64,000 bases of DNA from Pseudomonas sp. DG56-2 (GTDB lineage: Bacteria; Pseudomonadota; Gammaproteobacteria; Pseudomonadales; Pseudomonadaceae), in the NCBI RefSeq assembly GCF_004803755.1, contig NZ_CP032311.1, forward strand, positions 822,501-886,500, given 5' to 3'. Shown here one piece after another: positions 4,760 through 42,720 of this stretch. The notes beneath the pieces were generated by a model. The model was not told the origin of the DNA, ran no database searches, and saw nothing but the letters and a program-made list of their open reading frames with translations. The first letter of the stretch is position 1. Every line of letters begins with the position of its first letter. Both the position numbers and the translations under genes were made by a program.

Positions 4760-5038
4760 TTAGGCAGCTGCAGCGAGCTTCAGTGCCTTGATGTGGCCAT
4801 TCAGACGGCCTTTATGGCGAGCAGCCTTGTTCTTGTGGATGATACCTTTATCGGCCATACGGTCGATAACTGGAACAGCCAGGATGTAAGCAGCTTGCGC
4901 TTTTTCGGCGTCTTTTGCGTCAATGGCTTTAACCACATTCTTGATGTAGGTACGAACCATGGAACGCAGGCTGGCGTTGTGGCTGCGACGCTTCTCAGCC
5001 TGTTTTGCACGTTTTTTGGCGGAAGGTGAGTTGGCCAC
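4760..5038 (-). CDS. rpsT: 30S ribosomal protein S20
   Basis: 92-residue, very basic protein with the S20 signature [19 protein letters not shown]20 binds 16S rRNA in the small subunit. The start codon is GTG, preceded by GAGGAGCTCGAC, so the strong Shine-Dalgarno decides the start. Non-ATG starts are usual for rpsT; in E. coli the UUG start takes part in autoregulation by free S20, and the same may hold here (inference). It is transcribed away from murJ. Confidence 0.97.
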
Positions 5039-33841: not shown

Positions 33842-33917
33842 GCCGGTGTAGCTCAGTTGGTAGAGCAGCGCACTCGTAACGCGAAGGTCGCAGGTTCGAT
33901 TCCTGTCTCCGGCACCA
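33842..33917 (+). tRNA. tRNA-Thr (CGT)
   Basis: 76 nt with encoded CCA. The anticodon loop CTCGTAA holds CGT. Acceptor arms GCCGGTG and CTCCGGC pair except for a T-T mismatch at position 6-67. It is the integration target of the prophage that starts directly downstream. Confidence 0.95.
33893..33917. other. likely prophage attachment site attL (tRNA-Thr 3' end)
   Basis: The integrase gene begins 165 bases after the tRNA 3' end and reads away from it, the standard arrangement for a tRNA-targeting P4-type integrase. The core should be the T-arm to CCA part of the tRNA. The matching attR would lie past 64000 and cannot be checked here, so the exact core is inferred. Confidence 0.6.
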
Positions 33918-33961
33918 TGTACATTTCCGGGAAGGCCCAGCAGGTTCCGGAAACCCCATAG

Positions 33962-33984
33962 AAACCGCCACTTGGCGGTTTTCT
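33962..33984 (+). terminator. terminator between tRNA-Thr and integrase
   Basis: AACCGCCA CT TGGCGGTT followed by TTCTTTT: a clear intrinsic terminator shielding the integrase from tRNA or pilA readthrough. Confidence 0.8.
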
Positions 33985-33992
33985 TTTGTCCG

Positions 33993-34039
33993 GTATATTC
34001 CGAATTCTTCCGGTACATTCCATTCTTTTTTAGTACATT
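33993..34039 (+). repeat. three GTAYATT repeats at 20-bp intervals upstream of integrase
   Basis: GTATATT at 33993 and GTACATT at 34013 and 34033 stand exactly 20 bp apart; the first two share TCCGGTAYATTCC. A fourth copy is at 33919, and an inverted one (read GTACATC on the other strand) at 34072-34078. Position and phasing suggest arm-type integrase sites or operators. Confidence 0.6.
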
Positions 34040-34081
34040 ACGCAGCACATCCTAGATTCGAGTGCTCAGGTGATGTACTAA

Positions 34082-35290
34082 ATGCCTATCACAGACACAG
34101 CGGCCAGGCAGGCCAAGCCCAAAGAAAAGCCATACACGCTCAAGGACGGGGACGGCCTGTTCCTGTACATCGCCGAAGGCGGTACCAAGTCTTGGCACTT
34201 CCGGTTCAGCTGGCACGGGAAGCAGGCGCGCATATCGCTGGGCACCTATCCAGAGATAGGCTTGCGGGATGCGCGGGAGCGCCGAGACGAGGCAAGGTCG
34301 CTGGTGGCCAAGGGGATTGACCCGCGCACCGAGCGCCGGCAAGCGAAGGCAGAAGCGGCAGTACATCAGGAAAATACCTTTGAGGCGGTGGCCAACCGCT
34401 GGCATGAGTTCAAGTTGCCGCGCTGGTCCGCAGCCCGCAAGGGCGCTGCAGTGCAGGCGCGCTTCTACCTGGACAAGGACCTGATCCCCGAGCTGGGCAA
34501 GACGCCTATTGCCCAGGTGAAGCGCGGCGATGTACTAGCGGCCATGCGCAGGGTCGAACGCCGCGGCGCCCTGAACTCTGCCCGCAAGTGCCGGTCCTGG
34601 CTCAACGAGATATTCCGGTACGGGATGGCCGAGGGTTTACTCGACATGAACCCAGCGGCTGACCTGGACATCGTGGCCCAGCCTGAACCACCAGTTCAGC
34701 ACAACCCATACCTGCGGCGGGATGAACTGAAAGAGTTCTTGATCGTGCTGCGCGACTTCAAGTGCGCCGAGTACGTTCGGAGCGCCATCCGGCTGCTGTT
34801 ACTGACCGGCGTCCGGACAATAGAGCTCCGGAGCGCAACAGTTGATCAGTTCGACTTCGAGGATGGGCTGTGGTCAATCCCTGCCGGGATCGTCAAGCAG
34901 TTGCAAAAGAGGGTTCGAACGAAAAGCGGGGAGATTCCACCGTACCTGGTCCCGCTGTCGCGGCAGGCCGTGGAAGAAGCAAAGCGTGTGCACCAGCTGA
35001 CTGGCCGATATCGGCTGCTTATCGCGGGTCGCAATGACCCGCGCAAGCCGATAAGTGATGGCACTGTCAATTCAGCCGTTTCACGGATGGGGTACAAGGG
35101 GAGGCTTACCGGCCACGGAATCCGTGGAACGATCTCTACCGCCTTGAATGAGATGGGATACAACGAGAAGTGGATCGATGCTCAGCTCTCGCACATTGGC
35201 GATTCGTACAACCATGCTGAGTTCGTGGAGCAGCGCAGGGTGATGATGCAGGAATGGGCCGACTACCTGGACAGCCTGATGGTGGACTAG
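34082..35290 (+). CDS. int: P4-type tyrosine integrase
   Basis: 402-residue phage integrase. It has the N-terminal DUF4102 domain (TDTAARQAKPKEKPYTLKDG), a SAM-like core-binding domain (about 100-200), and a catalytic domain with Arg near 245 (TGVRTIELR), HGIRG near 346 and the nucleophile Tyr near 376 in SYNHAEF. The gap between the LSH motif and the tyrosine is a few residues shorter than I expect for P4 integrases. It would recombine attP with the tRNA-Thr end and overlaps the convergent AlpA-like gene by 4 bases. Confidence 0.95.
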   Translation: MPITDTAARQAKPKEKPYTLKDGDGLFLYIAEGGTKSWHFRFSWHGKQARISLGTYPEIGLRDARERRDEARSLVAKGIDPRTERRQAKAEAAVHQENTFEAVANRWHEFKLPRWSAARKGAAVQARFYLDKDLIPELGKTPIAQVKRGDVLAAMRRVERRGALNSARKCRSWLNEIFRYGMAEGLLDMNPAADLDIVAQPEPPVQHNPYLRRDELKEFLIVLRDFKCAEYVRSAIRLLLLTGVRTIELRSATVDQFDFEDGLWSIPAGIVKQLQKRVRTKSGEIPPYLVPLSRQAVEEAKRVHQLTGRYRLLIAGRNDPRKPISDGTVNSAVSRMGYKGRLTGHGIRGTISTALNEMGYNEKWIDAQLSHIGDSYNHAEFVEQRRVMMQEWADYLDSLMVD

Positions 35291-36566: not shown

Positions 36567-36730
36567 GCTCGTCTCTCCGCTTGATGTTTGGCCTGTCGTT
36601 TCTTCGAGCAGGCACGGTGGTTACCGCATGAGCGATGCCGGCCGCAGTACTCGCAGGTCGGGTTCAGCTCAAGGAAGGGCATTGGCGCGCCAGGGCGGCG
36701 CACCTCGGTGGTTCGGTAAAGGGCGGTCAT
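36563..36730 (-). CDS. small zinc-finger-like phage protein
   Basis: 55-residue basic protein, MTALYRTTEVRRPG, with CEYCGRHRSCGNHRAC, a compact Cys/His cluster. It is translationally coupled to both neighbours (ATGA at 36727-36730, 4-base overlap at 36563), which supports it as a real gene. Confidence 0.65.
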   Translation of the reverse strand: MTALYRTTEVRRPGAPMPFLELNPTCEYCGRHRSCGNHRACSKKRQAKHQAERRA

Positions 36731-38538
36731 GCGGCCTCCGCCTGCTGCTCGGCAACTTTCCACGGATCGTTGGCCCTGGCCAGCGCTGCCATCGGCGGCG
36801 GACTGACGCTGTTGCCGCACATATGCACCTGCTCGGTCTTGGTGAACGGCTTGCCGTCGGCGCCCTTGTCGATGATGTAGTCGGCCGGGAAGCCCTGGGC
36901 CCGGTACAGCTCGTGCGGCTGCAGCATGCGCAGGCAGATATCAACGATCACATACGGCGTGCCTTTGACGTGGACGGTCACCAGAGCGAGACGGTCCTTG
37001 GTGGTGATCGTGGGTGAAGGCTGGTCGGCACCGCTGACGTTCTCGGCCCCGTAGTAGCTGATCAGGAATGCCGCGACGCGCAGAGCGCCTGCCTGATGCT
37101 CGGGAGATAGCTTCAGCTCAACCAACGAACTCTTTCCTCCACCACCAGCAGTCACCGTTGGCGCTGGTTCATCGAGCTGCTGTCCAACGCTGGCGCCAAA
37201 TGAGCGTTCCATGAAGGCGGTTATCAACCCGTGATGGGTGCCGCCAGCGCTGATGGTGTGGAGTGGGAGGCCCAGGTCCCGCGCATCGCAGTTTCCGCGC
37301 AGGTGAACCAGGTTCGCGCTGACCAGTTGTTGCTGGCTGCCGGTATTGGTGACCGTGGTCATGGGTTCGTCCATGCCCTTTGCATGAGTAGTATTGAACC
37401 CACCATTGGCTTGGGCCATAAATGCGGTGGCTACGGCGCGATGGCTTTGGGTCATTAGGGTGCCGATAGGCTGATCAGATGGTACTGGCTTGCCGGCATA
37501 CATCGGACCGCCAGCCCCGACCATAATCGGGCTTGCCATGGCGAATGATCCGCCTCGAGGCCATGAGGTGACAGTTCGAAGCGGCTCATACGCGGACTGC
37601 ACACTTTCCCCGGACCAGTTCGCGATCGGCACGATGAAAGGTTGCGGGTTATCGAGGACGAACTTCTTCATTCCCTTGGCTACCCGGCGAAGGGTGGCCG
37701 CGGCCAGGTCCTTTTTCCTGCCGAAGATGCTTTTGCTCGGCACGGTCCAGTCGATGCACTCCGCGGCAGTCCGCCACTTCTGCTGACCCTTGGTAGGCTT
37801 CTGCGCGTGGGTTGGCTCGGGCCAGACGATTGGCTGGCCATCGCAACGGGCGATCATGAACAGCCGTTCCCGGCTGGTCGGTGCACCGAAGTCGCAGGCC
37901 TTGATGATGCGCCATTCGACTTGGTAACCCATCCCTTCGAGCAGTTGCACAAAGCGGCGCCAGGTGATGCCGCGGCGCTTTGGGTTTGGTATCAGGAATT
38001 GCTGGTTCACGGGGACGTACTCGCCGGGCGCAGCTACGGTTCCGTCCAGCTTCATCACGCGGCCGGTAACTTTGTCGCGCTTAGCAACCAGTGGGCCCCA
38101 TTGCAGGATCTGCTTCACGTTTTCCAGGCTGATCACCCGGGGCTTCTTCTTGCCTCCCCACTTCAAGCCGATCCAAGACAGGTTGCGGATCTCGCGCTTG
38201 CGTGGCTGACCGCCTGCGGCCTGACTGTGATGAGTGCAATCCGGGCTCATGTGAAACCAGCCTACAGGGCGGCTGCCGCATTCTTCGTCAGGATCACCCT
38301 CGAACACATCGGTGGTGTAGTGCCGGGCGTGCGGGTGATTGGCGGTGTGCATGCTGATCGCCGCCGGGTTGTGGTTCTTGGCCACCGTCACCGGGCGACC
38401 CAGGCCCATCTCAAGGCCGGTACCGGCGCCGCCACCACCGCAGAAGAAGTCGACCACGATCTCGTCATCTTGCGGGTCGAGGCCCAGGCCGTACTGGGTT
38501 TTGAAATCGAAAGTGGGTTTTTTCTGAAATGCAGACAT
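36727..38538 (-). CDS. DNA (cytosine-5-)methyltransferase
   Basis: 603-residue C5-methyltransferase. Motif I is VDFFCGGGGAGTGLE (about 29-43), motif VI is SLENV, and motif VIII is GAPTSRERLF. Motif IV reads SPDC with Cys101 as the expected nucleophile, rather than the usual PPC. A long variable part (about 290-480) holds the target-recognition region. No cognate restriction enzyme is next to it, so it probably protects or marks phage DNA. Confidence 0.9.
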   Translation of the reverse strand: MSAFQKKPTFDFKTQYGLGLDPQDDEIVVDFFCGGGGAGTGLEMGLGRPVTVAKNHNPAAISMHTANHPHARHYTTDVFEGDPDEECGSRPVGWFHMSPDCTHHSQAAGGQPRKREIRNLSWIGLKWGGKKKPRVISLENVKQILQWGPLVAKRDKVTGRVMKLDGTVAAPGEYVPVNQQFLIPNPKRRGITWRRFVQLLEGMGYQVEWRIIKACDFGAPTSRERLFMIARCDGQPIVWPEPTHAQKPTKGQQKWRTAAECIDWTVPSKSIFGRKKDLAAATLRRVAKGMKKFVLDNPQPFIVPIANWSGESVQSAYEPLRTVTSWPRGGSFAMASPIMVGAGGPMYAGKPVPSDQPIGTLMTQSHRAVATAFMAQANGGFNTTHAKGMDEPMTTVTNTGSQQQLVSANLVHLRGNCDARDLGLPLHTISAGGTHHGLITAFMERSFGASVGQQLDEPAPTVTAGGGGKSSLVELKLSPEHQAGALRVAAFLISYYGAENVSGADQPSPTITTKDRLALVTVHVKGTPYVIVDICLRMLQPHELYRAQGFPADYIIDKGADGKPFTKTEQVHMCGNSVSPPPMAALARANDPWKVAEQQAEAA

Positions 38539-38582
38539 GGGCGTTCCTCGCCGAGGGCGGCGTGATTCATTGGCGTTGAGGG

Positions 38583-39737
38583 TTATCGCTTCTGGTAGGT
38601 CTTAGTCAGTTCGCCGTTGACTACGTGTCCGCGCTGAAGCACCAGATTGGCGAGCGCAGCACGATCCTTCTGGCTGTGACTGGCCTGGGTGAATAGGCCG
38701 AAGTAGCTGTTGGCGGTCTCGCGCAGCTGCTCGGTGGATACTTGCGTAGTGCGCTTCATCGCCTGGGCTACTGACCGCTTCCGGGTTGTGCGCCGCCATG
38801 GCTTGATCACATGCCCGACAAAGTCGATACCACGGTCGATGGGTTGCAGGATCGTCTTCGACGGGTTGAGCCTGGCGCCCAGCTTCGGTAGGAAGGCTTC
38901 GATCTCGGCCTTCCAGGCGTTCAACTGTTGGGCTGATTCATGCAGCAGCACAAAGTCGTCGACGTACCGGACGTAGTGCTTGACGCCGAGCCGGTGCTTG
39001 CAGAACTGGTCCAGGGCGTCGAGGTAGACGTTGGCGAAGAACTGCGACGACAGGTTGCCTATAGGTAGGCCGAGATGCGCAGGCTGTGCGGTCAGACGCT
39101 TGTGCTGCGGAACCCGGTTGAACAGGTGCGCCGGGCTCCGAACTTGGTAGTCGGTGCGCGGATCGTGCATTAGCACCTGCAGAGCCAGGGCCCGCCACCA
39201 GGGATCGACGATCCTGGCCGACAGTTGGCCGGCCAGCACACGCTTGTCGATGGCTACGAAGAAGTTGGCCAGGTCGCACTTCAGATAGAAGGCTGGCCTC
39301 GACCAATTCTGCGTCTGGCTGCGGATCTTCGACTCAAGGCGCTTCGCGGCGTACAGCGTGCCACGCTCTCGGATACAGGCGCAGCTGTCCGCTATAAAGC
39401 TGCGCTCGATCCGTGGGCCAATGTGGTTGTACAGCAGGTGGTGCACGATGCGGTCGCGGAAGTCGGCGGCCCACACCTCGCGGGCCTTTGGCCGGGTGAC
39501 CACAAAACATATTGAGCGGCCTGGCCGGTATTGGCCGGTTATCAGGTCGCTGTGTAGCGCCGTCAGGTTCCGCTCCAGATCCATCTCGAAAGCCAGGGCA
39601 CTGGCGCTGTTGCGCTTGGAACGCCGGCAGTCGTAATAGGCCTGGACCAGATCGCTGAACGGGTAGGGCGTTGAAGCTGCGGACGGGGCGGACGCGGAGC
39701 TCGTTGTTCTTGTCGTTGTTGTTCTGATTGCCATCAT
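38583..39737 (-). CDS. DGR reverse transcriptase
   Basis: 384-residue reverse transcriptase of the diversity-generating retroelement. The palm motif YVRYVDDFVLL carries YVDD near residue 258, and motif 4 reads GLPIGNLSSQFF, the IGxxxSQ form typical of DGR enzymes. RPAFYLKCDLANFFVAID holds the first catalytic aspartate. Family knowledge: the enzyme with Avd copies TR RNA into cDNA with frequent errors at adenines. The only ATG codons in frame before the conserved domain (39737, 39734) lie inside the template repeat, so the first 21 or so residues (Thr/Ser-rich) are read from TR. There is no clear ribosome binding site. Confidence 0.93.
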   Translation of the reverse strand: MMAIRTTTTRTTSSASAPSAASTPYPFSDLVQAYYDCRRSKRNSASALAFEMDLERNLTALHSDLITGQYRPGRSICFVVTRPKAREVWAADFRDRIVHHLLYNHIGPRIERSFIADSCACIRERGTLYAAKRLESKIRSQTQNWSRPAFYLKCDLANFFVAIDKRVLAGQLSARIVDPWWRALALQVLMHDPRTDYQVRSPAHLFNRVPQHKRLTAQPAHLGLPIGNLSSQFFANVYLDALDQFCKHRLGVKHYVRYVDDFVLLHESAQQLNAWKAEIEAFLPKLGARLNPSKTILQPIDRGIDFVGHVIKPWRRTTRKRSVAQAMKRTTQVSTEQLRETANSYFGLFTQASHSQKDRAALANLVLQRGHVVNGELTKTYQKR

Positions 39738-39777
39738 CGAAGTTCATGTTGAATGCGTTGTTGGCGGAGCGCTGCGA
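39677..39777 (-). repeat. DGR template repeat (TR)
   Basis: 101 nt between avd and the reverse transcriptase, overlapping the start of the latter. Read leftward in the target frame it holds ten Asn codons (AAC/AAT), the classic adenine-loaded TR codon pattern. Its last 27 nt are G+C-rich and identical to both variable repeats, serving as the initiation (IMH-like) region. VR1 differs at 14 positions and VR2 at 17, all at TR adenines. The bases between 39778 and 39939 are non-coding spacer. Confidence 0.95.
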
Positions 39778-39939
39778 CCTGTCGTGCTATCTACGTCGGC
39801 CTATCGAATATTCAACGGGCAAACTGCGCTGGACCTACACGGACGCTTTAGACCGGTGGTATCCAGGGTGCGCATGGCGGTGACCAAAGGTCAGCGGCAC
39901 GACCAGGTTCAATTCGCACAGACCAGAAAGCCGTAACTC

Positions 39940-40296
39940 TCAGGTAGCGGGCGCGGCTGGGGTGGAACGCTTCCAGGCGTTGGCCTGTTTGCCGATAGAC
40001 GTGGTTAGTGCAATGGCTGATGCGTGTTGCGGGATACTGATGAAGCGTTTTTCCTTGAGAACGCGCACCAGGTACTCGATCACCTGAACCCGTTCTACGA
40101 GCGCCACCAAAGCAGGTCGCTTATCGGCTGCCATGTTGGCCCGACCAATCAGAACCATTACCTCCAGGCATTCGTCACGCAACTTAGCGCCGAGTAATGT
40201 CTTGAAGTCGCGCGGGATGTTTCGTGTCAGGTCGAGCGCCAAGTTCAGCAGGTCAAAGGCGACCTTGTGGATTGGCAGGCTGGTGTGCATTCCCAT
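39940..40296 (-). CDS. avd: DGR accessory variability determinant (Avd)
   Basis: 118-residue, basic, all-helical protein (MGMHTSLPIHKVAFDLL, NIPRDFKTLLGAKLRDE, RVQVIEYLVRVLKEKR). Length and predicted four-helix layout match BPP-1 Avd (128 residues), which forms a barrel-shaped pentamer, binds nucleic acid and partners the reverse transcriptase. GGAGG lies nine bases before the ATG at 40296. It sits between target gene 1 and TR, as in BPP-1. Confidence 0.88.
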   Translation of the reverse strand: MGMHTSLPIHKVAFDLLNLALDLTRNIPRDFKTLLGAKLRDECLEVMVLIGRANMAADKRPALVALVERVQVIEYLVRVLKEKRFISIPQHASAIALTTSIGKQANAWKRSTPAAPAT

Positions 40297-40319
40297 TGCG
40301 GAAAACCTCCAAACAGCAA

Positions 40320-40337
40320 CCGGCCGCAAGCGGCCGG
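40320..40337. other. hairpin downstream of variable repeat 1
   Basis: CCGGCCGC AA GCGGCCGG: an 8-bp all-G/C perfect palindromic stem, 30 nt past the 3' end of VR1. In BPP-1 a hairpin just downstream of VR is needed for efficient retrohoming; this is the obvious counterpart. It lacks a T-run, so it is not a typical terminator. Confidence 0.65.
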
Positions 40338-40351
40338 ATTAAATGAACGAA

Positions 40352-40960
40352 TTAATCAATAAGCGACCTGCGGACGGGGCGGACGCGGAGCTCGCCGTAC
40401 TTGCCGCTGCTGTCCTGACCGCCATCATCGAAGAGCATGTAGAATGCGCTGTAGGCGGAGCGCTGCGAAGACGACCAGTACCAGTCGATCTGGAAGGCTT
40501 CTGGCTCACCTTCAGCAAAGCCCGGCACCAGGGTCTTAGTCGGCGACTCCTTGGTGTACAGCAGGCCCACCGGCAGGCTACTGGGGTTGTCACCATCGCG
40601 GTTCCAGCAGTAGTTTTCACGGCTGGTCGGCTTGAGGTGGCGATATTGCAATTCCTGCACGTCGCGGGCTGGGATCGCCCAGTCAGTGAATCCGCCGATA
40701 TTCAGGGCCAGGACCTTCTGTGCCAGCTCGCTGCCGGACGCGGCCATGGCCTCCGTGTTGGCGCGGCTATCGGTGAAGCTGTCGGCGCCGTCGATCTTCA
40801 CGCCGCATTCGCCCCATTCGCCGGTCAGTTCATGCGCGGCACCAGCGGTGATGTTGGCGAAGCGCTGACCGTTCTCGACGGTGATGCCAGAGAAGAAGCC
40901 GCCACCGAAGGGCTGGCCGATTTCGGGAAGCTGTACTGCCAATTTCTCTACTGCGCTCAT
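40352..40960 (-). CDS. DGR target protein 1 (DUF1566/C-lectin-like, variable C-terminus)
   Basis: 202-residue protein whose last 38 residues start with the variable repeat. The core shows LPEIGQPFGGGFFSG, a HEL..EW segment and DWYWSSSQ, and the C-terminus ends in GELRVRPVRRS, the pattern of DUF1566/Lcl domains, which have a C-type-lectin-like ligand-binding fold. VR1 begins exactly at residue 165. No signal peptide or membrane helix. AAAGGAA precedes the ATG. The diversified residues (Y, S, Y, L, G, D, S, S, G, Y, G) sit where TR encodes Asn, plus one Asp. Function of the displayed surface is unknown. Confidence 0.88.
   Translation of the reverse strand: MSAVEKLAVQLPEIGQPFGGGFFSGITVENGQRFANITAGAAHELTGEWGECGVKIDGADSFTDSRANTEAMAASGSELAQKVLALNIGGFTDWAIPARDVQELQYRHLKPTSRENYCWNRDGDNPSSLPVGLLYTKESPTKTLVPGFAEGEPEAFQIDWYWSSSQRSAYSAFYMLFDDGGQDSSGKYGELRVRPVRRSLID
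40368..40468 (-). repeat. DGR variable repeat 1 (VR1)
   Basis: 101 nt aligned without gaps to TR. 14 differences, every one at a TR adenine (changes to G, T or C in the coding sense). The final 27 nt are identical to TR. It encodes residues 165-198 of target 1. Confidence 0.95.
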
Positions 40961-40984
40961 GTGATGTTCCTTTCTGAAGGCAAC

Positions 40985-41005
40985 AAAAAAGGCGCTGATG
41001 CGCCT
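40985..41005 (-). terminator. terminator/hairpin downstream of target gene 2
   Basis: Read leftward: AGGCGC ATCA GCGCCT then TTTTT, about 34 nt past VR2. It may be both an intrinsic terminator and the VR2 counterpart of the retrohoming hairpin. Confidence 0.7.
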
Positions 41006-41025
41006 CTGTTCGAATGAATGAAGGA

Positions 41026-41631
41026 TTAAATGAACAACCTGCGGACGGGGCGGACGCGGAGCTCGAGGTCCTTGACGCGGCTGTCCTGAAGGCCACCATC
41101 GAAGTACAAGCCGAATGCGTAGTAGGCGGAGCGCTGCGAAGACGACCAGTAGTAGCAGTCCTGGGCGAACACCTCAGGGCAGTTCACCCAGCCCCGGTAC
41201 AGCTCCGCAGCGGCAGGTAGGTAGAAGTCGTTATGGTTGTCGGCGGTGTAGTTGCTCGCAGCCTTGGCGGCAGGATGGCTGCCTTCCTCCAGCAGGACCG
41301 CGCTATTGGCCAAACCATCGGTTTTGCTCGTAGCCCCAGAGGCTTCGCCGCGGCGCCCCCATTCATGGCTACCAGCGTCTTCGATGGCAATGATCAGGTA
41401 ATGCTCCGGCACGTCGCCGCGGGCTGCGACCAGTCCGCCGTTGATGCCGCCCTGACCGGGCCAAGGCTTGCCGATAGCAGGGATATCGGTCTGCGCGATC
41501 GGCTGAACGCTGGCCGCTGGCGGTAGCACCTGAGCAAACACGCTGGCAATTGCGACCTTCGCCAGATGGGACGACGGCATCTTGATCGTGGCGTCGCCGT
41601 ACTTAAGGGTGATCATTTCAGGTTTGGACAT
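41026..41631 (-). CDS. DGR target protein 2 (DUF1566/C-lectin-like, variable C-terminus)
   Basis: 201-residue second target protein. It shares the plan of target 1 (IPAIGKPWPGQGG, HEWGRRGEASG, CYYWSSSQ, LELRVRPVRR), and VR2 also starts at residue 165. The middle contains FYLPAAAELYRGWVN, usual in DUF1566 proteins. No signal peptide. GAGGAAACCTCC precedes the ATG. The two genes look like an old duplication that kept the same repeat frame and distance. Confidence 0.88.
   Translation of the reverse strand: MSKPEMITLKYGDATIKMPSSHLAKVAIASVFAQVLPPAASVQPIAQTDIPAIGKPWPGQGGINGGLVAARGDVPEHYLIIAIEDAGSHEWGRRGEASGATSKTDGLANSAVLLEEGSHPAAKAASNYTADNHNDFYLPAAAELYRGWVNCPEVFAQDCYYWSSSQRSAYYAFGLYFDGGLQDSRVKDLELRVRPVRRLFI
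41039..41139 (-). repeat. DGR variable repeat 2 (VR2)
   Basis: 101 nt aligned without gaps to TR. 17 differences, all at TR adenines. It differs from VR1 at 15 positions, so the two were mutagenised separately. It encodes residues 165-198 of target 2. Confidence 0.95.
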
Positions 41632-41651
41632 GGAGGTTTCCTCAGGACATG

Positions 41652-41673
41652 AAAAAGGCGCCTTTCGGCGCCT
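41652..41673 (-). terminator. terminator before the DGR target genes
   Basis: Read leftward: AGGCGCC GAAA GGCGCCT TTTT, 16 bases past the stop of the 41689-42510 gene. It separates the recombination genes from the DGR unless antitermination occurs. Confidence 0.85.
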
Positions 41674-41688
41674 GCGGTGTAGGGACGG

Positions 41689-42510
41689 TTAAGCCACAAC
41701 TTCTTCCAGCGTGGCGCTGACCTTGTAGCTGTGGTCGAGCGCCGTCTCACCTTCGGTTTCTACGGTGATGACCTGGTCATCGAGCAGGCGCAGCAGGAGG
41801 GTGGTTGCTTGTTCGCTACTGACGGCCAGACGGCTCTGCACCCAGTGAGCCTTGAAGGGCTTGCCGCTGGCCTTGAGCACGATCAGTTGCTTGGCATCGT
41901 CGTAGTCGAAGTCTCCGAACTCCTTGCTTATCGCTACATCGCCAGTGGCTGGAGCGGTTTGGGGTGTCGGATCCAGGTCAACTGCCTGAGCCTCTGGCTC
42001 ATCTTCCTGCATGGGCGTGTTGCGGCGGTCCCGATACATGGCTTCGGCGATGGCGCCGGCGCTCAGCGGCAGCTCCCGTTGATCACGCTCAGCGCGGATG
42101 CCATCGATACCCTCGTTGTAGTCATTCGGGGCCAGCACCAGCAGGCAAAGCTTGCCGGCAACATCGATGAGGCCATGCCGGTTTGGGTCTTGGGCATCAA
42201 TCGCGGCGGTCACCGTGATGGCCTTCGCCTTGAACTTCGCATCTACAACGGTCACCGGGATGGTGTCCACGCTGCGCGAACTGATGATGCCAACCGCCGT
42301 CCAGACGACCTTTTCAGCCTGCTCGGTGAGGCGGTCGATCACCTCTTGCTGCTCGTCCTCGCCCAGGCGCCCAAACGGCACCTTGATGTTGCGCAGCTCA
42401 AAGAGCGCGGCTTCGACCATGTCGCGCACCATCAACTGATGAGCCAGCACCATGGGTTCAACGCCGTGCAACTTGGCGCGTTCGATTGCTTCTCGGTGTT
42501 CTACTTTCAT
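41689..42510 (-). CDS. phage protein with C-terminal FtsK-gamma-like winged helix
   Basis: 273 residues. The N-terminal half is of unknown type; the C-terminus (about 200-260) reads YDDAKQLIVLKASGKPF and SEQATTLLLRLLDDQ, resembling the DNA-binding gamma domain of FtsK. Such proteins are common in Pseudomonas lambdoid phages beside the exonuclease. Possible role in recombination or chromosome interaction (inference). Confidence 0.65.
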   Translation of the reverse strand: MKVEHREAIERAKLHGVEPMVLAHQLMVRDMVEAALFELRNIKVPFGRLGEDEQQEVIDRLTEQAEKVVWTAVGIISSRSVDTIPVTVVDAKFKAKAITVTAAIDAQDPNRHGLIDVAGKLCLLVLAPNDYNEGIDGIRAERDQRELPLSAGAIAEAMYRDRRNTPMQEDEPEAQAVDLDPTPQTAPATGDVAISKEFGDFDYDDAKQLIVLKASGKPFKAHWVQSRLAVSSEQATTLLLRLLDDQVITVETEGETALDHSYKVSATLEEVVA

Positions 42511-42519
42511 GAGGGTTCC

Positions 42520-42720
42520 TCAGTACTTGGCGATCTGTTCCAGCTTCTTCTGCTGGTGAACGCTCAAAAGGGTGCGCGGGCCGTGGCGCTTGAAGTGGGC
42601 CCGCAGGTTTTCGACGAACTCGTTTTCCCAAGCGCCGTCGGCATGAAGCTCGGCGGCGGCAAGCAGGGATTGGAATTCTTCGACGCGGTCGTAAAGCTCT
42701 TCAACGGTTTGGCTGGCCAT
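42520..42720 (-). CDS. small phage protein
   Basis: 66 residues, helical and charged: MASQTVEELYDRVEEFQ, HQQKKLEQIAKY. No known domain. It sits between the YqaJ nuclease and the FtsK-gamma-like protein in the recombination operon. Confidence 0.65.
   Translation of the reverse strand: MASQTVEELYDRVEEFQSLLAAAELHADGAWENEFVENLRAHFKRHGPRTLLSVHQQKKLEQIAKY

Follow-up and report, generated by a model that had tools for sequence, protein, structure and literature searches.

To our knowledge, template choice and priming in diversity-generating retroelements (DGRs) have been worked out only for the element of Bordetella phage BPP-1. There, according to excerpts of PMC12875486, the spacer behind the template repeat (TR) recruits the reverse transcriptase (RT) and Avd, and an adenine of the spacer primes at the 3' junction of the TR. 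An overlap of the TR with one end of an RT open reading frame (ORF) has already been described as DiGReF group 3 (PMC3521204, in part). In retrons, the RNA is folded between two inverted repeats, the 2'-OH of a conserved guanosine is the primer, and msr, msd, and RT share a single transcript (PMC8989520 and PMC8867640, both in part). Here, we describe a DGR in the 5.82-Mb genome of Pseudomonas sp. DG56-2, located in a 64,000-nt stretch of contig NZ_CP032311.1 (positions 822,501 to 886,500, hereafter the window). The element is confirmed as a DGR by its sequence, and its unusual part is its template RNA: the Rfam RNA RT-15 lies directly ahead of the TR, and one strand of it appears to form a helix, called the tether here, with the 3' end of the TR.

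The cassette occupies positions 38583 to 41631 of the window and consists of RT, Avd, one TR, and two variable repeats (VRs), all on the minus strand, exactly as an original prediction made without database searches had placed them (Table 1). Transcription passes through two DUF1566-like genes that carry VR1 and VR2 at their ends, then avd, the TR, and RT. All mismatches to the TR fall at template adenines, which make up 31 of its 101 positions: 14/14 for VR2 (P = 5e−9) and 17/17 for VR1 (P = 3e−11), or 31/31 in the window. Between VR1 and VR2 there are 15 differences, every one at a template adenine. A DNA search of the whole genome for further copies of the TR returned only the TR, VR1, and VR2 (next match, E = 0.126).

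The same bias was found in relatives. Two RT scans yielded at least 80 genome and at least 80 viral loci, which with the window and two RT-15 loci gave 163 loci. Only repeats of at least 85 nt with no more than 5 non-adenine mismatches were kept, a filter that left out a few third repeats with 7 to 16 non-adenine mismatches. A TR with VRs was obtained from 153 of the 163 loci, corresponding to 141 distinct sets with 284 VRs. Changed template sites in these sets were 3,761/8,702 for A, 26/9,818 for C, 69/6,395 for G, and 27/3,818 for T. The resulting adenine share of 96.9% is an upper figure because the filter favors adenine-biased repeats. The original prediction had proposed adenine-directed rewriting that should be visible as adenine-limited VR variation among relatives, and it withstood this comparison: in loci with an identical TR core, 305 VR pairs, which are not independent of one another, differ at 4,832 of 9,619 adenine sites and at 95 of 21,382 other sites. 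TR adenines in K, Q, and E codons (CAG, AAG, and GAG at 39677 to 39777) were changed in 0 to 2% and those in AAC codons in 8 to 83% (166 VRs); selection, sequence context, or both could underlie this contrast. Adenine mutagenesis is well supported by the pattern of TR and VR differences.

The protein components agree with this assignment. The RT carries YVDD at residue 258 and IGNLSSQ, which we take to be the DGR form of RT motif 4, and it matches the PHROG RT at 395 bits. Its top match among solved structures is 8ub7 (E = 5.5e−34), whose sequence aligns with the BPP-1 RT (bRT) along all 328 residues; the window RT and bRT are 30% identical. Scores were far under the cutoffs for the sole retron model listed, NF038233 (40.7 versus 235 bits), and for a group II model (92.5 versus 300 bits). 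Structure match, profile scores, and motifs together support a DGR-type RT that is neither retron nor group II, and the origins that would have told against the original prediction were not found. Among the matches listed, the nearest RT relatives in named genomes are Pseudomonas. The predicted Avd-type protein is recognized by Pfam bAvd (53.7 bits; cutoff, 40) and PHROG Avd (E = 5e−29), while the NCBIfam Avd model scores it at 47.7 bits, under its cutoff of 80. Two DUF1566-like targets are likewise supported, though their Pfam Lcl_C scores of 30.2 and 21.4 bits are both under the cutoff of 34.9, and the VRs occupy the C-terminal part of these C-type-lectin-like proteins, as in other DGRs. A fold search with target 2 gave no match, nor did Foldseek alone with target 1 at an E value of 0.001.

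Three features that the original prediction had not seen, the RT-15 leader, the TR/RT overlap, and the tether, make up what is unusual in this element. RT-15 fills the gap between avd and the TR and reaches into both neighbors, sharing 17 nt with the end of avd and 3 nt with the beginning of the TR core. The family was reportedly defined by Weinberg in 2017, and its Rfam entry gives its name and "sRNA" only. No mention of RT-15 or RF03018 was found in the literature searched, and the defining paper may hold an earlier remark on DGRs. RT-15 lay upstream of RT in all 11 loci scanned, ten of them picked by RT and one by RT-15. Searching with RT-15 alone, we found it in 3 of 398 genomes of the phylum, in 1 of 369 genomes of the class (the window's own), and in 30 of 398 genomes of the genus, at 35 places, with 3 more genomes below the cutoff. 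An RT of this type follows at all 31 RT-15 places that were read (30 of the 35 genus places, window included, and one phylum match), and for this reason RT-15 marks this DGR clade. TR and VRs were present within 3 kb at 30 of the 31 places. Locus L178 has RT-15 and RT but no VR within 3.2 kb. Five genus genomes have two RT-15 places each (G1097, G935, G929, G964, and G1022), and in G1097 and G935 the two places score alike, which suggests twin prophages.

Outside the clade, RT-15 was not detected in BPP-1 at E values up to 10 or in any of six further phage DGRs at the gathering threshold. In these seven DGRs, BPP-1 included, the TR ends 34 to 162 nt ahead of the annotated RT. In the window, by comparison, there is no noncoding stretch behind the TR, and RF03022 (Phage_DGR), which fills the space between TR and RT in BPP-1-type elements, was not found there at the gathering threshold. 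The placement of RT-15 directly ahead of the TR is well supported as the RNA layout of this element.

The TR and the RT ORF overlap by 61 nt. Between the in-frame stop and the conserved RT domain of the window, the only ATG, GTG, or TTG codons are two ATGs inside the TR. An in-frame ATG lies within the TR in 130 of 139 distinct loci, namely 101 of the 102 Pseudomonas-like loci (RT identity of at least 71.9%) and 29 of the 37 below that identity, and a stop in the TR closes the RT frame upstream in 81 of the 102 Pseudomonas-like loci, window included. Annotated RT starts vary among four related phages, lying before the TR in Magia, inside it in Cruim01, 14 to 16 nt after it in Haboob, and 91 nt after it in QDWS. 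An RT start inside the TR is thus predicted from codon positions, and for the window this prediction is firm barring an unusual start codon. The RT gene shows no rise in synonymous conservation downstream of the TR, and a priming RNA inside the RT gene was rejected on this ground.

The tether consists of an RT-15 strand, 5'-GAAUCUG, just before the closing helix, that is complementary to the TR 3' end, 5'-CAGAUUC. Homology between TR and VR stops at CAG, and the tether ends exactly at that boundary. The helix is nested and closes a unit made of the RT-15 body and the TR. It was first seen in the 141 loci, out of 162, that a strict pattern was able to read and was then aligned in 65 diverse loci (alignment A2), two of which, L167 and L078, lack a recognizable RT-15. 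In this alignment, 90.0% of tether cells were paired, compared to 82.5% in shuffled and 18.7 to 46.2% in slid controls, and the covariation score was 0.212, compared to 0.084 and 0.011 to 0.056, respectively. At pair 7, the informative one, the types counted were GC, 33; UA, 14; CG, 8; AU, 3; UG, 2; and other, 5. In the full structure including the tether, both sides changed in 41 of 64 pairs. An RNAalifold pairing of the tether to CAGA inside the TR was dropped in favor of the TR-end pairing, which covaries and was the only one of the two scored by the covariation test.

Fresh viral loci were fetched with three distant RTs, and the 175 loci obtained were reduced to 116 by removing 13 that were already among the earlier loci, 30 duplicates, 2 that were too short, and 14 that were unreadable. 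Pair 7 was kept in 109 of the 116 (TA, 49; CG, 29; GC, 23; TG, 5; AT, 3), compared to 57.9 on average and at most 73 in 2,000 shuffles. Pairs 6 (55 loci), 8 (92 loci), and 9 (74 loci) also exceeded all 2,000 shuffles, pair 6 barely. The base after the tether leader strand was G in 65/65 aligned and 113/116 fresh loci. The energy of a duplex between TR end and spacer was also calculated for the seven other phage DGRs; the best case was matched by 56 of 200 shuffles, and nothing was gained from it. A match between AGGTGGT and ATCACCT in BPP-1 was read from sequence alone. The 5-mer UGGUC is common to the BPP-1 spacer (L175, 2362 to 2370) and the RT-15 tether region, beside the reported and the proposed priming sites, respectively, possibly by chance; we take A56 of the BPP-1 spacer to be its priming nucleotide.

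What the sequences show directly is that the two targets differ from the template only at adenines, that RT-15 lies ahead of the TR, that TR and RT overlap, and that the tether covaries in relatives. We consider it probable that in this DGR with adenine-only target differences the RT-15 strand pairs with the TR 3' end and likely presents that end to the RT for priming. One transcript would serve as both RT messenger and template, and the folded unit of RT-15 and TR would be the binding site for RT and Avd. RT-15 may recruit and position them in place of the downstream spacer of BPP-1, since the covarying structure lies upstream and touches the same TR 3' junction. Synthesis of cDNA would start at ...GTCCG|CAG, immediately 5' of the tether, and would likely be primed by the 2'-OH of the G that adjoins the tether, because this G is nearly invariant and retron RNAs prime from a conserved guanosine beside their inverted repeats. 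VR1 and VR2 would then be replaced by the adenine-mutated cDNA, so that the targets, small lectin-like proteins, would acquire new surfaces for binding. By analogy, copying likely starts as in a retron and not as in the Bordetella phage element.

Several observations weigh against a priming role of the tether or soften its support. Two of the five covariation measures fail to beat shuffles in the 65 loci, being reached by 56 of 500 shuffles for pairs changed on both sides and by 204 of 500 for further pair types. Pair 7 is fully compensated in only 5 of 10 independent contrasts on the RT tree (64 of the 65 loci). Among the fresh loci, pairs 1 to 5 are nearly invariant and uninformative, and pair 6 is A.C in 45 of 116. 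The shuffles ignore the relatedness of the loci. The window itself is a weak example: one of the 9 tether positions is a C.C mismatch, leaving 8 pairs, and the minimum-energy fold contains the tether, but at pair probabilities of only 0.16 to 0.24; in three folded relatives the tether scored 0.97, 0.0, and 0.54. Finally, the tether could act in translation instead. RT-15 and the tether would then control RT translation, the loop of the helix hiding the RT ATGs, and priming would come from another element. It fits this view that the window's only usable RT ATGs sit in the tether-closed loop and that no Shine-Dalgarno-like GGAG precedes them in the sequence. Yet the end of the tether coincides exactly with the boundary of TR/VR homology, and no conserved structured RNA other than RT-15 lies beside the template, where other DGRs use such an RNA for priming (PMC12875486, in part). 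We therefore regard translational control in place of priming as unlikely, and the two roles could coexist.

Other explanations have less in their favor. RT-15 occupies the place at which a cDNA extended toward the 5' side of the TR would come to an end, and in BPP-1 reverse transcription is ended by sequence in the avd 3' end (PMC12875486, in part), so the role of RT-15 might be confined to the processing or stability of the transcript or to stopping the cDNA on the 5' side of the TR, with BPP-1-like priming within the RT gene. The lack of extra synonymous conservation in the RT gene behind the TR and a tether that links RT-15 to the 3' end of the TR, not just its 5' end, make this very improbable. 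Even less credit can be given to a coding role, in which the RT-15 region would encode an N-terminal extension of the RT and the TR would lie wholly within the RT gene. In its favor, 58 of 139 distinct loci have no stop in the RT frame across the TR, and the RT of phage Magia is annotated from before the TR, but leader length does not keep frame (35, 15, and 13 of 63 loci in the three classes of length modulo 3), and the in-frame stop noted above interrupts the frame in most Pseudomonas-like loci. That the element is an inactive relic is the least plausible of all, given uninterrupted reading frames for RT, Avd, and the targets, an intact catalytic YVDD, and no non-adenine difference among TR, VR1, and VR2 in the TR core.

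Table 1. Features of the DGR cassette in the window
Feature	Position	Strand	Remarks
DGR reverse transcriptase	38583..39737	-	384 aa; ORF begins inside TR (61-nt overlap)
Tether, TR-end strand	39671..39679	-	CAGCUUCAA; predicted; C.C mismatch 39676/39907
TR core	39677..39777	-	101 bp, 31 A
RT-15 RNA (RF03018)	39775..39956	-	156.9 bits (cutoff, 82), full length
RT-15 closing helix, 3' strand	39782..39787	-	Pairs with 39897-39902
RT-15 closing helix, 5' strand	39897..39902	-	Pairs with 39782-39787
Nearly invariant G, candidate branch nucleotide	39903	-	Directly 3' of tether leader strand
Tether, leader strand	39904..39912	-	UUGAACCUG; predicted; covariation in relatives
avd (accessory variability determinant)	39940..40329	-	True start may be a later ATG
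Hairpin	40320..40337	-	30 nt downstream of VR2; 7-bp stem, CTTG loop
Target gene 2	40352..40960	-	202 aa, DUF1566/Lcl_C-like; VR2 at 3' end
VR2	40368..40468	-	14 mismatches to TR, all at TR adenines
Hairpin	40988..41007	-	Downstream of VR1; ATCA loop, then T run
Target gene 1	41026..41631	-	201 aa, DUF1566/Lcl_C-like; VR1 at 3' end
VR1	41039..41139	-	17 mismatches to TR, all at TR adenines

The consensus hairpin of DGR targets is GC rich, with a 4-nt GRNA loop behind the VR (PMC3240598, in part). The window VRs are followed by hairpins whose 4-nt loops, CTTG and ATCA, are not GRNA. Stems of at least 7 were found in 94 of 254 VR flanks, and a mean of 24% of mononucleotide shuffles also reach that length. 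A further hairpin, at 41656 to 41673, has a GAAA loop, of the type that has been reported for the hairpins of DGR targets; it precedes target gene 1 instead of following a VR. Some relatives carry a third VR in a further DUF1566-like gene 3 to 9 kb away (L172, 4495 to 4875; L174, 266 to 865; L058, L068, L071, L074, L079, and others), and the third VR of Magia is near a repressor gene.

The cassette lies in a prophage and is surrounded by genes of phage families, including integrase, RecE, RecT, HNH nuclease, CI, replication O/P, terminase, head-tail adaptor, and capsid. It shares its strand with the recombination genes and sits between them and a cytosine methyltransferase gene, apart from the window's tail genes, a position that by likeness to lambda would correspond to the early-left operon. 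The cytosine-5 DNA methyltransferase gene (36727 to 38538) is downstream of RT, as it is in phages Haboob (L173), Cruim01 (L174), and QDWS (L204). At 33842 to 35290, a tRNA-Thr gene adjoins the integrase gene and is a likely attachment site. When 131 bp around the tRNA-Thr end was used to look for attR or a second attachment site copy, none was found in the genome itself, and a 78% match was found only elsewhere. No promoter was found by consensus in 38500 to 42700.

Among known systems, RT-14 (RF02921) of Bacillus phage BalMu-1 is likewise an RT-numbered orphan RNA beside a DGR, but it follows the TR, as in BPP-1, filling the TR-RT spacer (L206, 2295 to 2438); RT-14 may be another DGR RNA with the BPP-1 layout. 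RF03018 itself, which the window matches over its full length, is placed here as the 5' part of a DGR template unit, and if this is correct, a role is given to an Rfam family known by number only. The clade resembles DiGReF group 3, in which the TR overlaps an end of the RT ORF and Pseudomonas fluorescens WH6 is listed with two VRs. In contrast to our reading, the available part of PMC3521204 deems that arrangement irrelevant, with TR and RT transcribed separately, and contains no RNA leader.

The BPP-1 DGR shares with the window the logic of TR and VR, adenine specificity, Avd, a related RT, and the order avd-TR-RT, although the two Avd proteins are not recognizably similar in pairwise comparison (E = 0.3). 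In BPP-1 the TR directly follows avd, and a 144-nt spacer with RF03022 precedes brt, whereas in the window RT-15 lies between avd and TR, RF03022 is lacking, and the RT ORF starts in the TR. This clade thus appears to do the priming job of BPP-1 with a structured RNA on the opposite side of the template, which, if true, would offer another system in which to learn what features of priming are general. The compact leader-template-RT unit may also serve as a tool for directed evolution.

The likeness to retrons consists of a structured 5' leader, a template, and RT, in that order, with inverted repeats that close the RNA and a conserved G adjacent to them (PMC8989520 and PMC8867640, both in part). 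Such repeats and G are found in the relatives, as a resemblance only, and the window copy is mismatched. The differences are that the window RT is not a retron RT by the scores given above, that its template is adenine mutated into VRs, and that the branch G is a candidate by position. We suggest tentatively, as a possibility we would not yet favor over its negation, that a clade of Pseudomonas and Burkholderiales prophage DGRs primes as a retron does, with RT-15 as an msr-like leader, the tether as a1/a2, the G donating its 2'-OH, and cDNA starting at the TR boundary from the messenger of the RT itself. A link between DGRs and retrons would be suggested if the tether primes as proposed, and under the fully retron-like scheme the two would share one priming geometry, of which the downstream spacer of BPP-1 would be a permuted form.

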